Source: Clytia hemisphaerica
Taxonomy: Eukaryota; Cnidaria; Hydrozoa; Leptothecata; Clytiidae
Assembly (NCBI GenBank): GCA_902728285.1
Contig: CACVBU010000236.1
Location: forward strand, 1-64,000
Length of the DNA: 64,000 nt
Reading direction: 5' to 3'
Shown: positions 2,376 to 51,400 of the stretch, in pieces
Numbering within the stretch: position 1 is the stretch's first letter
Layout of the letters: the number at the start of each line of letters is the position of its first letter
The notes under the pieces: generated by a model
What the model was told of the DNA's origin: nothing
Databases searched by the model: none
What the model saw: only the letters and a program-made list of their open reading frames with translations
Made by a program: the position numbers and the translations under genes

Positions 2376-30987
<28,612 letters not shown>

Positions 30988-33780: not shown

Positions 33781-35035
33781 TGCAAACAAAAACCTCCCGC
33801 CATCTTGTAACCTCTCCAGGGTGAATTGCACCAAATCTGTACCATGGGTTTGTAAACAAGACAAACTGTCTTCAAATTTCCACATAAGTAGATGTGTTAG
33901 GTATTAGAACTTCAGTTGTTGTGGATATGGTACTGTGGCTAGCTCAGTTGGTAGAGCATTTGCCTTACAATCTAAGGGTTGTGGGTTCGATCCCCGGTTA
34001 CCGCCAACTCAGCGGATGAGTAGCTTAGATTGGGTAATCTGATCTAGGCCTTAAGTTACTGGGAGCTGAGAGTAGGTGTGGCGCTCCACCTCAGCATTCG
34101 ATCTCCCAGGTCTAGGGCAAACAGAAAAGGGGATAGACTCCCTCACTCCTGGCTCCGCCGACAGCCACCAGATGAATATACTTACTTACTTACTGTGGCA
34201 GAATGTATCAGTCAGGATTAAAGTCATTTTTTGATACTTTGTTTCGTCTTTGAAATACTAGCAAAAATCTGTGATGGACGGGGGAGGGGTGGGCGTCCCG
34301 TCTGTCACGCATATGCCTGTCTTCCTACCACTCAATTTTTAATTAGACTTCCTAAATTCTTGACAATTTTATGTAATAATGCTACTCTATAATGGAAGTA
34401 TATGCTTCGCAAATTACAAGCCATTTTCTTGAACCAAACTTGAGTTATAACTGAAAATGTGTGACGGACGGGACACAATTTTTTTGCTTTCAAAGGTAAA
34501 TTCAGTACAAGATGCTTATTTGTTCAATTTTCCGGACTCAGGGGATTTTCTTGTTGCGTGTCCGGGAATTTTAACATTACTTTTTTCAGACTTACCCCAG
34601 ACTGAACGCGTGGTCCGCGCGACGTACTTAAACAATCGGGTGATTGCATTGGCATCAATTTCACCATCCCTATTCCGCCCGCTTTCATGTAAACTTGTCA
34701 ACCGCGTGTCGTCTGTGCGTTAACTCACAATCACGGGTTCACTTATCTGGCGCGGTTTGTTTGTCTGGGGATACAAATATTTTTTTCGTTCCCCAGACAT
34801 TTGCCCCAAATTGTCCGGGTAATCGGCAGGCTCGTACGAAACAAAATATTAAAAAATGACTTAGTCCCGACTAATACTTTCTGCCACAGTACCAAATCCA
34901 CTAAAACTTAAGCTCTAATATCTAACATATCCCATTCTATGGTAATTTGAATATATACAGTTTGCCTTGTTTACAAAACCACGGTACAGATTTGGCGCAA
35001 TTCACCCTCCAAGCAGCTTGGTAAAATCTGTGTGT
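33781..35035. mobile_element. Foldback element, arms ~200 bp, carrying a SINE in its left arm
   Basis: Left-arm GGGTGAATTG, ACCAAATCTGTACC, TTTGTAAACAAG, GGTACTGTGGC and AAAGTCATT appear inverted and in order in 34856-35010. The loop contains GTGACGGACGGGAC-type words in both orientations. Confidence 0.8.
33940..34190 (+). mobile_element. tRNA-derived SINE with 9-bp target duplication
   Basis: Pol III A box TAGCTCAGTTGG (33940-33951) and B box GGTTCGATCC (33984-33993) head a ~250-bp body that ends ATACTTACTTACTTACT. TACTGTGGC flanks it at 33931-33939 and 34191-34199. No proper 7-bp acceptor stem closes the tRNA part, so this is a SINE and not a tRNA gene. Confidence 0.85.
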
Positions 35036-40460: not shown

Positions 40461-41822
40461 AGTTTATTCGAGCGCTGTCAAGGATATATGGTCTTTCGTT
40501 AGAATATGGTCTCGCGTGGAAATGTGGTCTCGAAAACAATAGAGAGAGGGCAGAGTGAAAAAGAGGGAAGTTGTTTAACGTCATACCAGGTGTTTTTAAA
40601 CAACTCTCCTTCACTTGTTGAATTTTTAAAAGACGGGGAAAACTTTCCCTTTTGCTTTTTTGTAACAAAATCTGTTGATCTTTTAATCCTTTAATTAATA
40701 TACTTGCTAAGTAAAAACACTATCAGGAGTATGACAGCTCTTCAAAAAAGTTATTCTTGTAAAAAAAAAAAAATCTTTAAGAACAGACAAAGTAATTGAA
40801 TTTTAAAACTTGTGCTTTTAAAAAAAACTTTTTTTTATAAGAAGAAAATCATAAACGCAACTATCAAGTCTTCAGATGTGGTTTTCTTATTGAGAATAGG
40901 ATCAATTTCTATGGAGCCGAGTCTTTACTCCTTCGATTCAGCAGGCTTAGGACGCTCAGGGATGGTTTATGGTTTGTGTTGCAATTTTGTTAATTTATTT
41001 TGGTCTAAACCAGTCAATTCCTTTTTGCCCACAAAATTCATTTTACCTTACGGGGAGAAATTTTCCGGTTTGTGTAGTTTACGATGCACGATCCAACGAT
41101 TCACGATGCACGATGTACGATCAATGGAAATTATTATAATTGTTTGGAAATGAACTTTTATGCAGCAATTTTCACGACGCTAGAAAGAATGCTCATTAGC
41201 TTTGTTCTTTTTTTACAAGATTAATTTTGTGCTTATAAACACTCAAGACCACATATTCACGACGCTAGACACTTGAGACCACATATTCACGACGCTAGAA
41301 AGAATGCTCATTTCTTTGTTCTTTTTTTACAAGATTAATTTTGTGCTTATAAACACTCAAGACCACATATTCACGACGCTAGACACTCGAGACCACATAC
41401 TCACGACGCTAGAAAGAACGCTCATTAGCTTTGTTCTTTTTTTTTACAAGATTAATTTTTGTGCTTATAAACACTCGAGACCACATATTCACGACGTTAG
41501 ACACTAGAGACCACATACTCACGACGCTAGACACTAGAGACCACATATTAATTATTATAAATTAAAGAGGCAAAAACTATTGAAGATATTACACAATGCA
41601 TTTTTGCAACTTTAGCGTTGAGCTGAACAATTCAATAAGAAAATTTATTTATTAAATAAAACAATTATCTTTTAGCACACAAGAAAATATTTTCACAAAA
41701 ACCCCCTTTAAACATTTTTTGTAATTTTGAAATACTCTCCTTCGCATTTGCTTTCGAGACCACATATTCTTGAAAAGACCACATATCCACGAAGCCACAT
41801 TTTCACATCAGTGCTCGAATAA
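40461..41822. mobile_element. Foldback element with CGAGACCACAT words
   Basis: TTATTCGAGCGCTG on the left mirrors CAGTGCTCGAATAA on the right. The left end has ATGGTCTCG words and the right has CGAGACCACAT, so words face each other across the element. It includes the 41160-41560 minisatellite and ACGATGCACGAT words at 41085-41125. Confidence 0.7.
41160..41560 (+). repeat. Minisatellite, CACGACGCTAG units
   Basis: Three long units of about 130 bp contain GAAAGAATGCTCATT, TTTTACAAGATTAATTTT, GTGCTTATAAACACT and (A/T)GAGACCACATA(T/C)TCACGACG. Short subunits multiply at the right end. Confidence 0.9.
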
Positions 41823-42449: not shown

Positions 42450-45400
42450 ATGAAAAGTACTTTTTTCTTAACAATTTTATGCATTGCTCTTTCTCAAATA
42501 CATGGAGAGAAGATTGGGAAGAAGGTTACAGATTTTAATGATGTAGATGTTGAAAAGCTTCTTGACCAATGGAACGTAAGGAATTTCATTAAAAAATCTT
42601 TTCTTTTTTCTCTCTGTTCTGATTGTGATTGATTAAATCTGGCATGGCCTTAGAGAGTTTGCTTTCTTTCAACTTTTAAAACACTAAATACAATGAATAA
42701 ACCCTGAGAATGAAAAGAGCTCATAATAAATAGAGAGATTTCTAAGCCATTCAGTTAGTCAGGCACATATCCTGGCAAATGAACGGGGTGAGCATTTGCA
42801 TGGGGTATTCGTCACCCAGGCCAGTGTAGTAAATGAGATAGGACGTCTCAGGCTAAAAGCGGGAAAATGAATAAAAATGAACTTCAAACTGAAAATGGGA
42901 AAAAAAGTAAGAAAACTGGGCACTTTATTTTTTCGTTAAAAGTTTCTTCAATCTTCGAAGACAAAATCAGTCTGGGAAATCCTCTCAATAAGTTACATCA
43001 AAATGCCTCGAAAATGTCAATATGAAAATTGCGTAATCAGAGAACGTATGTCTCGCTCATTATAAAAAGGCCGAGAGACAAACTTTCAATAATTGGATTT
43101 TAAACATCGAGTTAAATCTCTTTTGTTAAGTCACCAGGGGGTAAATAAAACAGACCTTGATACATTTATCGTTCGCTTCAACTTGACGATTCGTTTAAAA
43201 CTCAGCCTCCTAAATATTTGGGGTAGGTAAAATATGCACACAGAAATTCATACTTTTCCAACCCGGCCAATCTTAAGAAAGAAGCGAACAATAAAATGTA
43301 ATTACCCTTTCCAAATAAACCTCTTCGGTGGCGAGCGTAGTCTACTCTGACGTAATTGTAAAATTTATGTGATGGGAGTTTGACATAGTAATGTAATGTT
43401 GTTTGGGGAATTATGAAGTTCTCTGGAATTCCGATTGCATTTATTCAGGTTGATTCTTTATGGACATGTTCATAAAATAAGGCAAGCTCTGTGACATTCA
43501 AAAAATAGGAAAAATTGGTCTTATGTTGATAAAAGCTTCAAAATAGCCTCTACATCAATAAAAATTTTTGGCTAAAAAGGTAACAAAGGTCCAAAGGCAC
43601 TAGAATTGAAAGATTTTGGATGTGTAGGTTATTTTGCCAAAAACGGCTAAAAATGTAACATTTTCATTATAAATGACCTAAATTTTTATTTCAGGTGAAA
43701 AAAATTAGAGCAAGGCTTGGAAATGAAACTTTAGTATGTTAACTTCCCGCTGTTGTTATTTGCGGAAATTGCACATCGTTAAACTGAAGATATTGGCTAA
43801 AGAAGTAACATGCTCAGAAAATCAACTTCTATTCATAATTTCAATAATTTAGAATTTATGGAACTTAAACAATTACCATATACTATCTAGACTATAAACT
43901 TAGCTATGGAAATACCTTAAATTGGCTTATTTCTTGTTAAAATACACATTTTGGCTAAAATGTAACAAAAACAGTGTTCGACCAATTTCAAGATTTTATA
44001 GTTTCAAAATTAAAGAATTGGGTTCAACAGAATTCAAAATATAAAGGATTGTTTTATTACTTGTCTTAAAGTCAAAGTTTTTAATTATAGGCTCATGTCT
44101 GGCTAAAAGTGTAACAAATATAACATATTTTTGTTTTATCGAAAACGTCATAATTCAGAAGTAATGCTGAGCTATGGAACTTCTGAAAGTTTTTTCTAAA
44201 AAAAGACTTATATAATGAGTTTTAATAGAACAAAATAAGTTATAAAATAAGAACTTCAAGATAAAACATTCTTAACTGGAATAGGCTAAAGTGTAACAGA
44301 ACATATTATATTGTTGTCTTAGTTGTTTAAATAAAAATGTAATTAAGAAGTAATGCTAAGCTATCAGCTATGGAACTTCTGACACCTTCTTTAAAAAAAC
44401 TAATGAACTTATGGAACAAAAAAAATTATGAAATAAGTACTTCAAGATAAAACATTCTTAACAGGAATAGGCTAAAGTGTAACCATCAAAAAATGAAGAT
44501 TGAGATTGATATCCCATTAATTCAATGAAATTATCGTGTTTCCCCCATGTTATACTGACAGCCAAGCTTCGGCGAGTATGACTTCTGTTACACCTCTCAT
44601 TGCAAAGTGATGTTGAAATAAGTATTACAAAAGGTTGATTGAAACATGAATCATATTGATAGTGCTGTTAAACAACTTGTTCATTCCCCAGAAACGGCTA
44701 AAAAAGTAATAAAATTAGATATTTCTTCCCAATTTTGTTACAAATTTAGCCAATTTTGGCTGATTAATGAAAATAAAGGCTTTTGGAAGGTTCATCAAGT
44801 GAATTATCTGTCATTGAGATGCTGATTTTTGAGATGTGAATTATGTAACTTAGACTAAAGTCTGAATACCAGCCAATTTAATAAATACTTCTATCAATGG
44901 GCCTGAAAAGGGACCATTATTAGAGTTATAGGATTGAATGTTACCATATTAGCCAGTTTGTCCTATCATTTATTGGCAAAGTCATAATATTGTCTAAAAC
45001 AATGCATGAACTAAACAATATATTGCCTTTTGACTAAGGATTCGTTGTTATGTCGACAAAATCTGGCTTAAATGGAACAGCACATTGGGATATTTCAGCC
45101 TTGTTACACCATTAGCCGATCAACTTTTTAACCCAAATGCATTACCAATAGCATCCCCTTCAACCCCCTAATGATGCTAATGTACCATTTTTTATGTGAA
45201 TATTGCCTAATAGCTGTTTTAGAGTCATTAGCCAGCTTTTCTAAAATTTGCAATGTTACATCATTAGCCAGAATTCTGGCAAGATTCAAATTGTCATAAC
45301 TTGAAATATACTAAACTATAGAAATCGCTGTTACCTAATTTGCCAACAGAAATCTAATGAGCTAACCATCATGTTATTCTTTGAGAAGGATCAAATTCTG

Positions 45401-48400
45401 TTAGAAAGATGTAGGCTAATTTTGTAACATAGGTATGAAATGTCACAAAAACCTCAAAAACTTGCCTTTTTTTATGAACATGTCCTTATGACTTCTAATG
45501 GTACTTTTTCTAACGAGTTTGATTACTCTGTTCTCACACTTATGTCCTTTTTTTTCGCGTCCTTTTCTCCGTGATTACTTTTATTTATATTTTTAAAGAC
45601 AGGTAAGAAGGCATATTGATGTAACTGTCAATTGCACGCTTATGTTCCGAGGCCATAACCGCGCAATTGCACGGTTATCAAAATGGCAGAATTTTTAAGC
45701 ATGTAATTACACGCTTATCGAAATTGTTCTGAAATGGGCGGTAAGCGGTAAGCGGTAAGCGTGCAATTGCACCCTTTATTATTCTGACACGCAATTCCTT
45801 CCGGAAACTCGAATTTGAATTTCAAAAGCCTAGGGCAGTTTTACTCAAAGTTTATCGTAGAAGAAGATTCCGTAAAAATGGATTGCCCGTTAAACCATGC
45901 CTTCACCCGAATTAGAGAATTCTGAACCCCTTGAAATCCCTAAGCAATTTCAACCAGGGCGGGAGCGGGCGTAAATTATAACCATGCATTTGCGCGCTTA
46001 CGCCCTCGTGTAATTGAGCGGATTTCCCAGACTGAAAATTGACCCATGGAAAAAAAATTTCATCTATGCAGTTCTTTGAAATGAAGCAAAATATTTCCAA
46101 CCCGGTTCAATTGCGTGGGGTATTCAGTGCTATTACATCACTTTTGTTTTCGACCCCTTGCACTTGCCACCAATCGCAAGTGAAAAATACCCCGTTCATT
46201 TGCCAGGATGTGCCTGACTGACATTCGTCAGTATAAAACCTTGTGACTATAAAATTTACCAAAATTTAACAAAAGGGTGGTTAAAAAACTAGGGAAAACT
46301 CAGGTAACCTTTATATAAAGGTAGCAATATTTACACACGCAAGAGGTTAGAAGGTTTAAGGTATTCAACTACTGTGAGATTGGGTAACTTGCATCAGTGG
46401 GGGCTAACATGCATAGCCCTCAAATGAAAGACCTGGCTGGTCATTAAAATACAAAATTAAATCAAAACAAAAATGGTAGAGTAGAGCTGCAAGCGGAGCT
46501 GCGTAGTTGTATTTTAATGACCAGCCAGGTCTTTCATTTGAGGGCTATGCATGTTAGCCTCCACTGATGCAAGTTACCCAATCTCACGGTATGTGGTAGC
46601 AGTCAAGTTCCTGCCACGCTAAGGGTGCATGACAGTGAGGCTGGAACTTCGATTTTTGAGGATTACGATTTTACCAGCTTTTTAGCGATTTTTGCCTCGC
46701 TAACCCAAATCTCGCAACCTCTTTACCTTAAGGAAGATCGAAATTAGAGTTTTTCAGCGTTCCGAAAAAAATGGAAAGCAGAAATTCTTTTATCTTCACA
46801 GGATTGATTCTCAACAACAAAATACATCTTTTGGTCCTTGGGTTTTTTTCTGACGTTTTTCCTTCAAAGAATATCAATCACTTTCCTTTTCCCCTTGAGC
46901 ACGCGAGAAAAAAATGATTAGCTCGCATTCTCGCGCGGGCAAATAAAGATGAGGCGGCAATCTTGAACTGAGGGTGCTTCTTGGTTTCCACCCTATTTTG
47001 CGCCCATGGTAGAATGGTCTAAATATGGGGGTATATTTCCAAATGATAAACAATGTTGTTCTGTAAGTGTTTATTTTCTGAGAGATACAAATAGTATATT
47101 GAATATTATTAACTTATTTATTTTTTATTTAAGTATTTTTTAGCCCAAATTTAAATCTGGTTAAATAAAAAAGAAATGATAGCAGTTTTGTTTTTCCTCA
47201 AGCCCCCGGGAAAAGTTTTTTTGCCGACTTAGCTATTTTACAAATTTTGGAAAAGAACTCCCATAGGAATTCCGATACATAACCCGATTGGTTAATTTCG
47301 GCGGAACGGCTTCAAGAAAGTCATAATGGCAGATAATTTTAAAAGTTTCTGAGGAAATGTGTTTAATTTATCGATGTTGATGGCTTGTTGATTCTTTAAA
47401 GAAAAAAGATAACTGGTATAGCTTTTTCTAATCCTGGAATATCGAGGTTCCAGCTACACTGCATGATACATTAGGGGACAATCTGCTTGATCATAATGAG
47501 TAACTGACAGTCACGGAAATCCTTGCATTTGCACAGGGTGTGCATTTGCAACGGTTTCAACGATTTTTTCCTCCCCTGTGCAAATGAGCTAGAACGTGTA
47601 AGGCAAAATGCGCAAAAATTAACAAATCTCAACTTTAAAATGAAAATGGCATAAAACAATGACGAATGCTGACGAATGGCATTTTCATTTTCTCTTTTAA
47701 TAGAAGATTCTTTAGCCTTTTTAGAAAATGTTTGTCCACTGGTTAAAATTTTGATCTGTGCATTTTTTTATAATCAAGTGTAACATTTTTCCACTCTGTG
47801 TAAATGCAACGAGTCGCAGTGATCTTACTTTTGGATGTGTTTGAGCGTATCGCTCTGGTAAGAATCTTTTGATCCACACCACAATCTTCATTCAATCCAT
47901 AATTCCTGAAGGAAAAAATGGATCAGCAGAGAGATTTCATGTCTAAAATTGAGTTTGAGTCAACTCTCCTGCACCCTGTATAACCACGGATTTGGGGTTC
48001 ATCGGGAATTTTTTGCAAGTGTTTGTCAAGTGCATTTTTGAATTTGTCAACAGTTAAATTTTTCAAGTTTCTAATGCTCTTTGGCATTGCATTGAAAAGT
48101 TTTGCTCCTTGTATAGTCAGGGTACTGTCGCATAATTTTGAATTGTTTGGACCAGCGTATTTGCTAAAACACATTCGTCCTAATCTTGGATGGTCTTTAG
48201 ATTTGAAGCAATCATTGATATTTGGCACAATATTTTCCAATATTTTCCAGGTGTATATGATCCTTAGCGTTCTCTCCTTCTTTGAAGTGAGTATATTCTA
48301 AGCTTCTTTAGACTTTCCCAATAATTTTGGTGTGTTCCTTTAATTTGTTTTAAAAATGATTTCTGGATCTCTTCAAGTCTTTGAATAAGACTAATAGTAC

Positions 48401-51400
48401 TGGGGCTCCATAAGGCTGAGCAATATTCCAGTATAGGGATCACAAGTGATCGAGTATATGTGACTCCCCAAGCAATTTGAAGTACACAAAAGTCCGATCG
48501 GCTAAAGCGGGTAAAAGACCGGTCTCATAGCGGGCGAAGTGAAATTTCAAGCGGCCTAACATTTTAGAAGATCGGCCATGAAGCGGCCAATGGAATTTTT
48601 CCAAGAACGGCCTCAAGGCCTCTATTAGAGGCTTTTTCTTAATCGAGAGACCGGCCAAACGGCCAGCGGCCTATTTAGCGGCCAGCGTCCTATTTAGCGG
48701 CTTTCTTTAGGGATCTTCTCAAAGATTTAATAGATTTTCGTTTATGAAGTTTGATTAATGACTCGACTATTTATTCTCCTATATTCAATTATTTTTAATC
48801 TCCCATATTCAATTATTTAATCCTTGTTGTATTCGATTAATTAATCCTTTTTCGCTTATATCTTAGGGATCTTCTCAAAAATATAACCGAATTTCGGTAA
48901 AATGGTTTCGGTTAAATTCGGCTGTTTAACCGAATCGCTTCGGTAAAAAGTTTAACTAATTCGGTAAAAGTAATTATTGAATTTGGCTGAAGCTTGTGGA
49001 ATTCGGTTAAAGTTTTACCGAATTTCGGCTATAAAGAATTTTACACTGTCTAGAATAATAATAGAGAATTCCACTGACTGAGACGGGGATATTAACAAAA
49101 GGATCGTTCGTGGTGAGACAGGGTTGTCTTGAAAATTGTTCTTTTAAAGGGGAATTAACGTTTCAAAATTGTCAACAAATAAATTACAGATTCAAATAGA
49201 GCTCATTCAGACAATTTCAAATATATATGGTTTATAGGGCTTTACTCTTCTACATCCGGAATAAGAGTTGTTTGAAAATTCCCTTACGTTGCTATGGATA
49301 CGAAAAATGTGACGTAGCATACGCCCTGTGTTTCTCTTTTTTATAAGGGAAGAGTGGTGAATGATGATTTAAAATGCAGTTTTTGAGTTTCTTTTTACCG
49401 TTAGAAAGTTCACTGCACCTTTGGAATCCTAAGTAGACTCTCCTAGTATTATTTCTTCAACGTTTTGCTATAACTACTCTAAAAAAGATTAATTTCTTAT
49501 GTTTTTTATCTCTTTTACAACCAAATAGAGTGTAACAGTAAGAATAGTTGGAGCACATGTGACGTCACAAAATCAACAGAGGGGGAGTTTTTCTCCATTG
49601 TAGAGTCAAAATTGTGAGAAATTAAAGATTGAATAACTCAATGAATAAAAGACATTATGAAGTGGTTCTTTTTTTGTTCGATCACATTTTTCTTCCTCTT
49701 TAATGTCTCGAAAAAAAATCTCAGGGTTAATTCCAAACGTTAATTCCCCTTTAACTACTTACATATTCTGAATTTGTTTATCTAGTATTTTTGAATAGCG
49801 AAATACTTTGCTCTCTTACATTTCTTTTCAAATCATAACAACGAACGAAGCAAAGTGCAGACTTTTACTAAATGTTTGTTTACATTGAGCTCCCTCTGCG
49901 TTCTTTCCTTCCCGTTATCACGTGAACTTTTACCAAAAATAGTGATGAAATACACTCCTTCTGAGTGTGTCTCTTTCTTTTCACGTGATTTTCACTTTTT
50001 CTCTCTCGCATTCTAAAAGTTGCATTAAGCATTCGAAACATCACAGATCAGGAGCTTGTGACAAATCAGGAGCTTATAAGAAAGCAAAGCCTGCAAGATG
50101 CCCTTTTGGAAGCTTTCCCCCTTCTCTACTGGGGAAGCAATCATTTCATTTTATTTTACAACATTTGATGGCTTCTTAGGTCCTTCTTTATTTCGAGCGC
50201 CCTCCCTTTTATCTTTTTTTTTGTTTTGCCCTTTTTGATTTCTGAAAAAATCTTTCTTTGTTCCAAATGTACTTGAAAATGTAAGTAAATTAAAAAATAA
50301 AGCTAAGGGCCGCTCATGGCCGCTAAGGGCCGCTAATGGCCGCTATGTCCGATAAGGGCTGCTGTTAGCGGCTTAAAACTTACTATGCGGCCGCTTTTAA
50401 TAAGCGGCCTTGCATCGGCCTTCTTCAATATCCAAACGGCCCAAAAGGTAAAAAGACTGGTCAAGTAGAGGCCAAAGAAGATCGGTCTTTTTACCGATCG
50501 GACTTTTATGTACTTCAAATCGCTTGGGGAGTCACATATTTGCATGGGGTTTTTTCGTCACTTTCGTTTTCGACCCGTTGCATTTGCCGCATGTTGAACC
50601 CTGTGCAAATGCAAGGATTTCCATGACTGACTGAGCAGACACTGTTTTTATCATTTCGTCTTGCTGGGTTATTTATGTCATGCTTACGAGGATGATAAAC
50701 AGATTTGTCGATGATTTGTTAAGTGTGTTATTTAGGTATCTATGTACAAGTTTACATGCTTCGAGTAAGCACCCAAAAGGTAAAAAGACCGGTCAAGTAG
50801 AGGCCAAAAAAGATCGGTCTTTTTACCGATCGGACTTTTATGTACTTCAAATCGCTTGGGGAGTCACATATTTGCATGGGGTTTTTTCGTCACTTTCATT
50901 TTCGACCCGTTGCATTTGCCGCATGTTGAACCCTGTGCAAATGCAAGGATTTCCGTGACTGACTGAGCAGACACTGTTTTTATCATTTCGTCTGGCTGGG
51001 TTATTTATGTCATGCTTACGAGGATGATAAACAGATTTGTCAATGATTTGTTAAGTGTGTTGTTTAGGTATCTATGTACAGTTTACATGCTTCGAGTTTA
51101 TACAAACTATGAATGTTTAAGGGATTAAAGTCATTATTGGTTTCAGGGTTGTCGTTTACTTTATTGTTGATAAATTTAAAGCATTTATAAATAAACCTGT
51201 TTATTTGATTGAGTCCAGAGGTTTCGGGACTGCCCCAAGTACTTACACAGTATAAGGAAATAAGATTGCGTTTTGATATATACCTACCTATCTTGTATAA
51301 CATACCTACTCCTTGTTTAACTTTCAGCCCTGTGAATCCAGGTCGGCACTTGAGCTGAAGTCGGCTTTTATTTGCCGACGTAATTTACACTCTAGGTTGG

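Follow-up and report, generated by a model that had tools for sequence, protein, structure and literature searches.

In the P superfamily, Galileo-G of Drosophila buzzatii is described as carrying several THAP-domain sites in its 1.2-kb terminal inverted repeat (TIR) (PMC3688188). In the CACTA transposons Spm/En, subterminal motifs are bound by an element-encoded protein of the TNPA type, and soybean CACTA subfamilies differ in motif sequence, for which the available text poses co-evolution as a question (PMC2613891). Here we describe a non-autonomous DNA transposon copy of 2,024 bp in the hydrozoan Clytia hemisphaerica, at positions 43462-45485 of a stretch of 64,000 nucleotides (contig CACVBU010000236.1 of assembly GCA_902728285.1, positions 1 to 64,000 of the forward strand; this whole stretch is called the window). 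The element carries arrays of a bipartite word, GGCTAA-N3/4-GTAACA, and on the pattern of these words across copies and relatives we consider it likely that they are transposase-binding arrays co-evolving with the element's own protein. Three features are unusual in combination: the word is bipartite, its spacing is nearly mirrored on ends that are otherwise unrelated, and the words covered in a sister family, laid out alike, differ uniformly by one letter. Co-change of a transposase and its sites with function retained can seldom be observed, since the sites are few in number and the tips almost invariant. Many words per end at fixed places and the uniform difference of the sister family offer a natural experiment on the co-evolution of fingers and targets, and the element also bears on the function of arrays distant from the tip and on how deletion copies stay mobile.

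The likeness to Galileo lies in putative sites for a zinc-binding N-terminal domain of the transposase far from the tip (at ~70, 561-577 and 701-718 bp in Galileo, with in vitro binding there). Galileo sites are described at three places in long inverted repeats with tandem repeats (PMC3688188), whereas the window family has TIRs of ~25 bp, 5-7 words per end on mostly unrelated flanks, a 4-bp target site duplication (TSD) and C2H2 fingers. No THAP domain appeared in five open reading frames (ORFs) scanned with Pfam, where C2H2 was seen; the broken gene may hide parts. Target duplications of P and Galileo elements are longer, 7-8 bp. Membership of that group was rejected on both THAP and TSD length, which is 4 bp here.

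CACTA/EnSpm elements also have short repeated motifs at both ends. They differ in their CACTA tips and 3-bp TSD, and the motifs of Tgmt* are reported as asymmetric, within 159 bp on the left and 732 bp on the right (PMC2613891); in the window family, words spaced by 75-200 bp are nearly mirrored, and the GGACATG tips and 4-bp TSD rule out membership. Sola2 was compared on TSD and TIR features alone: it has a 4-bp AT-rich TSD and short TIRs, and its description, in the text available, mentions no word arrays (PMC3627910). The 4-bp TSD of the present family would fit Sola2. Coral CMITEs, described as related to piggyBac-like transposons, are likewise short, and part of their interior is conserved between families, but their printed internal consensus is without GGCTAA-N3/4-GTAACA (PMC2872659). 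The piggyBac target is given as TTAA (PMC7351741), and piggyBac membership was rejected with TTAA at 1 of 16 copies and other tetranucleotides at 15. Among open-licence papers, the titles and abstract openings that deal with subterminal arrays, with foldback or Sola elements or with co-evolution do not describe the window family.

The element, its copies and its word

The TIRs of the window element are ~25-28 bp long and 93-96% identical, with GGACATG tips, and the inverted ends begin with GGACATGTTCATAAAA. Searching the genome (417 Mb, 951 contigs) with the element as query gave at least 63 matches. Nine copies including that of the window are full-length; the eight others match it at 97-99%, and the range over all nine is 97-100%. 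Their mean pairwise divergence of 0.92% indicates recent spread. Exact TIRs stood at both ends in 15 of 32 fetched loci, and the other 17, without one or both exact TIR 12-mers, were excluded from end analysis. Each of the 15 has a perfect 4-bp target duplication (AAGT twice, AGGT twice, and ATGA, TGCT, ATAG, TTTT, TTAA, TTGA, AACT, TGTT, ATAT, CTAT and CCAT once each), which makes 16 of 16 two-ended copies with that of the window. With its TIRs and constant 4-bp target duplication, the element fits a cut-and-paste DNA transposon.

The word had been noticed by a first-pass annotation of the same DNA, which reported about fourteen copies of GGCTAAA-n-GTAACA. Their presence was confirmed, with 14 copies at up to one mismatch, 11 of them exact, but not their form: read literally with one free base, the word has no match in the window, and the real gap is of 3-4 bases after GGCTAA. 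All 11 exact words of the window lie inside the element. If one mismatch is allowed, the element has 14 words and the remaining 61,975 bases have two, each with a gap of 5 bases. Sixty dinucleotide shuffles of the element contained on average 0 exact words and 0.03 at one mismatch. For the 1-base-gap form, a count over the genome gave 21 matches against 6 for its reversed control. These density figures cover the window, the fetched loci and the 1-base-gap form; loci L081-L084 were scanned for the word only. A second repeated motif was sought after masking the words and rejected, since the best other 12-mer occurred in 6 copies, within the maxima of 4-6 in eight shuffles.

The features of the window element are given below, with counts for words from a table of 15 two-ended copies, L065 (367 bp, both ends) being excluded.

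43458 to 43461: target site duplication TTAT, left copy
43462 to 43486, plus strand: left TIR, GGACATGTTCATAAAATAAGGCAAG
43570 to 43585, plus strand: word L1, GGCTAA-AAAG-GTAACA; exact core in 14/15 copies
43645 to 43660, plus strand: word L2; exact in 13/15
43795 to 43810, plus strand: word L3; exact in 15/15
43953 to 43967, plus strand: word L4, 3-base gap (likewise in the sister family); exact in 14/15
44101 to 44116, plus strand: word L5; exact in 9/15, at up to one mismatch in 14/15
44101 to 44483, plus strand: two tandem units at a step of 183-186 bp, with 75% identity across 214 columns, a word starting each unit
44284 to 44298, plus strand: word L6; exact in 14/15
44470 to 44484, plus strand: word L7, GTAACC variant; exact in 0/15, at up to one mismatch in 12/15
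44507 to 44510: junction where longer copies hold internal (gene) sequence (query 1053/1056)
44696 to 44711, plus strand: forward word of a plus/minus pair, GTAATA variant
44736 to 44751, minus strand: word R5; exact in 13/15
44939 to 44954, minus strand: word R4; exact in 15/15
45102 to 45117, minus strand: word R3; exact in 14/15
45254 to 45269, minus strand: word R2; exact in 15/15
45329 to 45344, minus strand: word R1, GGCAAA variant; exact in 0/15, at up to one mismatch in 15/15
45414 to 45429, plus strand: odd forward word near the right end, 71-72 bases from the right tip in 15/15
45461 to 45485, minus strand: right TIR
45486 to 45489: target site duplication TTAT, right copy

Within one mismatch, each of the positions L1-L7 and R1-R5 is kept in 12-15 of the 15 copies. 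Words shifted by more than 30 bases (L049, L052, L054) were scored as missing, so that some missing words are in fact displaced, for example in L049, where other DNA breaks the copy. Collecting genomic copies, as the first-pass annotation had proposed, shows the words shared at near-constant places across two-ended copies.

Inverted repeats also lie outside the element, at 42754-42789 and 46189-46222 (36 nt, 92%) and at 42967-42989 and 46013-46035 (23 nt, 96%). Their presence on both sides suggests that the window element sits nested inside another inverted-repeat element.

Longer copies and short derivatives

Three longer copies, L050 (6,921 bp), L051 (4,501 bp) and L052 (7,663 bp), carry mutually related ORFs on the strand opposite to the left-to-right direction of the element. 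In these copies, pieces of a putative transposase gene lie between a forward left array and a mainly reverse right array, and the gene region sits at the junction of the window copy near 44507-44510. Hence the window copy consists of the left ~1,050 and the right ~970 bases without the gene: an internal deletion has brought both ends of a longer transposon together. The contrast that had been drawn with subterminal arrays such as those of Ac and En/Spm, with words taken to run through the whole of the present element, is not supported. In the longer copies the words flank the gene, and they appear to span the 2-kb copy because it joins two subterminal regions.

In L050 the gene is spread over several frames and begins with C2H2 fingers (zf-C2H2, E 3.6e-6, Pfam), and L051 has an open stretch of 407 amino acids but is without the finger-holding part of L050. 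The two copies are co-linear: 3,028 columns align at 97.7%, and 41 positions are gaps. On this ground the breaks are read as small frame shifts rather than introns, and an intron loss in L051 relative to L050 was rejected. L052 contains further foreign DNA and part of the gene only. The autonomous relative that the first-pass annotation had called for is thus found in part, as longer copies with a putative transposase coding sequence that is broken or partial in all three. Another candidate for a long parent, L049 (contig C306), was rejected, since it proved to be a 2-kb copy split at two places by other DNA.

Used as a protein query, the 407-amino-acid stretch had 95 related matches in the genome. 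Among them, six weak matches (24-25% identity; C418, C312, C403, C373, C397 and C556) all lie near query positions 19-196, five of the six in open frames of 304 amino acids, and look like one separate, recently spread family. A phage search found nothing useful; in viral contigs, a TIR search gave nine loci with the word in 0/9, and a protein search no useful match.

Sixteen loci are short derivatives. Nine of them join query positions 350 and 1476 exactly, at words L3 and R4, three have other junctions nearby (338/1476, 350/1487 and 322/1484), and four match one part only. They are older, with both exact TIR 12-mers in 0/16; the right end is present in L009, which is the larger stretch of locus L007.

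At the deletion junctions of L067, L068 and L071, a forward and a reverse word stand back to back as a 32-bp near-palindrome, with the words at 1346/1362, 1458/1474 and 991/1007, respectively.

Spacing and growth of the arrays

The orientation pattern described earlier holds: the first eight words face forward and five of the last six are reversed, with the switch at 44.70-44.74 kb, a place different from the deletion junction at ~44507-44510. Measured from the tip of the window copy, left words start at 109, 184, 334, 492, 640, 823 and 1009, and right reverse words, in their own direction, at 142, 217, 369, 532 and 735. The spacings first given as 148-186 are 150, 158, 148, 183 and 186, and word distances from both ends are nearly constant in the 15 copies. 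Successive spacings run 75-150-158 on the left and 75-152-163 on the right, counting reverse words only. Words placed uniformly at random would agree to within 5 bp with a probability of 8.5e-5 for the first three spacings and 5.5e-4 for any three consecutive ones; with the observed spacings permuted, the probability is 0.003 and 0.023. The test omitted the forward words at 45414 and 44696.

The element had also been called a foldback. The inverted repeat, however, comprises only ~25 terminal bases, and with words masked the left part aligns with the reverse complement of the right no better than shuffled sequence (z 0.9). Because left and right share no homology beyond TIRs and words, the foldback label is wrong. 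The flip in orientation is the mirror arrangement of two subterminal arrays.

Arrays grow by duplication, as indicated by the 75% tandem duplication on the left and by a ~390-bp module around the plus/minus pair 44696/44736, of which L050 has three copies on its right side and L051 two. The first-pass annotation had proposed binding-site arrays multiplied by slippage or selection. In our favoured reading, binding is putative, multiplication came partly from duplication, and selection, seen as constraint on the cores, keeps the words.

The same duplications suit another explanation, in which an ancient tandem repeat left the words behind as passive relics and the flip is an old inversion, since these duplications show that duplication builds arrays. 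We regard this as improbable, because no other repeated motif is found between words and yet the cores are conserved between subfamilies, and because the uniform difference of the sister family extends past the ~392 bases that can be aligned to the window copy.

A sister family with another word

The two top protein matches after the query's own locus are C566 (71% over 2-407) and C737 (68% over 2-319), for which 1.6 kb each beyond the gene was covered on the left-end side (loci L085 and L086). The tip reads GGACATGTTCATTAAAAAAGGCAAG in both loci, whose flanks differ, and their TIR is nearly that of the window family. Their words lie at 109-110, 184-185, 334-335, 492-493, 644-646 and 809-811 from the left end, and all six in each locus read GGATAA and none GGCTAA, the fourth with a 3-base gap. 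Over the first 392 bases, in which L085 can be compared with the window copy at three words, the third letter is changed in 3/3, other core bases in 1/33 and other bases in 95/305 (p 1.8e-4 between the last two). The difference may have arisen in either direction, from C to A or from A to C.

A more distant relative at C691 (39%), covered for 1.4 kb beyond the gene (L087, 1-1401), has three tandem units of ~402 bp, in which TGATAA-AACC-GTAACA and TGATCA-AAAT-GTAACG each occur three times; no TIR was visible by eye. As these words stand in a single tandem repeat, they count as two words and give a hint only.

Conservation of word cores

Against the majority of five copies of the longer subfamily, the window copy differs at 1/156 core bases and at 117/1,534 others (p 2e-4). 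Against a consensus of 12 short derivatives, it differs at 0/71 core bases and 66/575 others (p 6e-4). The derivative counts dropped L070, L073, L079 and L080, which have one matching part each, and in filtered counts rows were masked where local identity was below 60%. Word middles vary chiefly from word to word.

Discussion

In the mechanism that we propose, the words would serve as subterminal sites recognised by a protein that the parent transposon encodes, and the likeliest candidate is the C2H2-bearing N-terminal part of its transposase. In the parent, the gene would be flanked by forward words over ~1 kb on its left side and by mainly reverse words over ~0.8-1.7 kb on its right. Several protein molecules may dock on each array, by which the ends would be brought together or the enzyme loaded onto the right DNA; the TIRs would then be cut, and their insertion would be staggered by 4 bp. 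Copies without the gene that kept TIRs and arrays, as the window copy, could still be mobile in trans. Duplication of segments may enlarge the arrays, while selection on mobility would keep cores and spacing and let the rest drift. A shift in the preference of the protein would make the words change together, resulting in sister families with different words. The identity of the binder, its binding domain, synapsis and co-evolution as the cause are what we infer from these patterns.

A more specific proposal, which we hold tentatively and at somewhat less than even chances, is that sister families within one genome have their tips in common and set out 5-7 bipartite words per end as on a ruler, but differ in letters (GGCTAA or GGATAA, perhaps TGATAA in the more distant relative), the words and the transposase fingers of each family being co-adapted. 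Mobilisation of deletion copies would then be family-specific, and spacing would be selected because the end complex needs a regular array to assemble on.

Several observations weigh against recognition by the element's own transposase. L7 and R1 are fixed variants, and one right-end word faces the wrong way in 15/15 copies. The gene is split between frames in L050, fingerless in L051 and a fragment in L052, and Pfam and PDB scans of the ORFs show no catalytic domain, the PDB sequence search giving a single match at E 0.16. In the sister family, right half-sites vary in two of six words (GTAACT and ATAACA). Moreover, its two insertions share ancestry, so the uniform letter difference is one event seen at six sites of the left-end side, not two events. 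Middle bases, changed at 3/49 between subfamilies, are not clearly freer than their surroundings.

Further difficulties come from decay within copies. Short derivatives differ from their own consensus at 24/672 core bases and 303/5,390 others (p 0.03, filtered), and young copies differ from the window copy at 2/1,343 and 108/13,986. Neutral decay after insertion predicts no difference between core and rest, so the low core change in old and young copies fits less well. Without filtering, the derivative consensus differs from the window copy at 7/95 core and 93/712 other bases, and within the derivatives the decay of cores (0.199) is not slower than that of other bases (0.185); in these unfiltered counts, many rows stop short of the right end.

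Cores that look conserved even in dead copies would be expected if the words are sites of a host protein, a transcription factor or a silencing or architectural factor, which the element exploits or by which it is controlled, with the transposase not the binder. A spread of ~1 kb per end also exceeds what catalysis needs. We nevertheless consider this explanation unlikely, because the same letter difference at the six examined words of the sister family, with the TIR nearly unchanged and in the same genome, is unexpected for a host protein, and near-mirror spacing suits end recognition better than control of a gene. Least probable of all is homogenisation of words within each family by short gene conversion without a binding protein, which predicts the same uniform letter difference but needs tracts of at most ~16 bases that spare the fixed variants (GTAACC and GGCAAA) and the word-specific middles in the copies compared.

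Other features of the window

Several features lie elsewhere in the window. An open frame at 13077-13643 matches rhodopsin-family receptors. A (GACA)n array of ~87 units occupies 18406-18754, a 114-bp tandem repeat with three copies at 94% lies at 41172-41531, and two 332-bp tandem copies, 97% identical, are located at 50440-51097. Rfam gave one tRNA-like match at 33937-34006, with a score of 30.2 against a gathering threshold of 29, which is possibly a tRNA-derived repeat.

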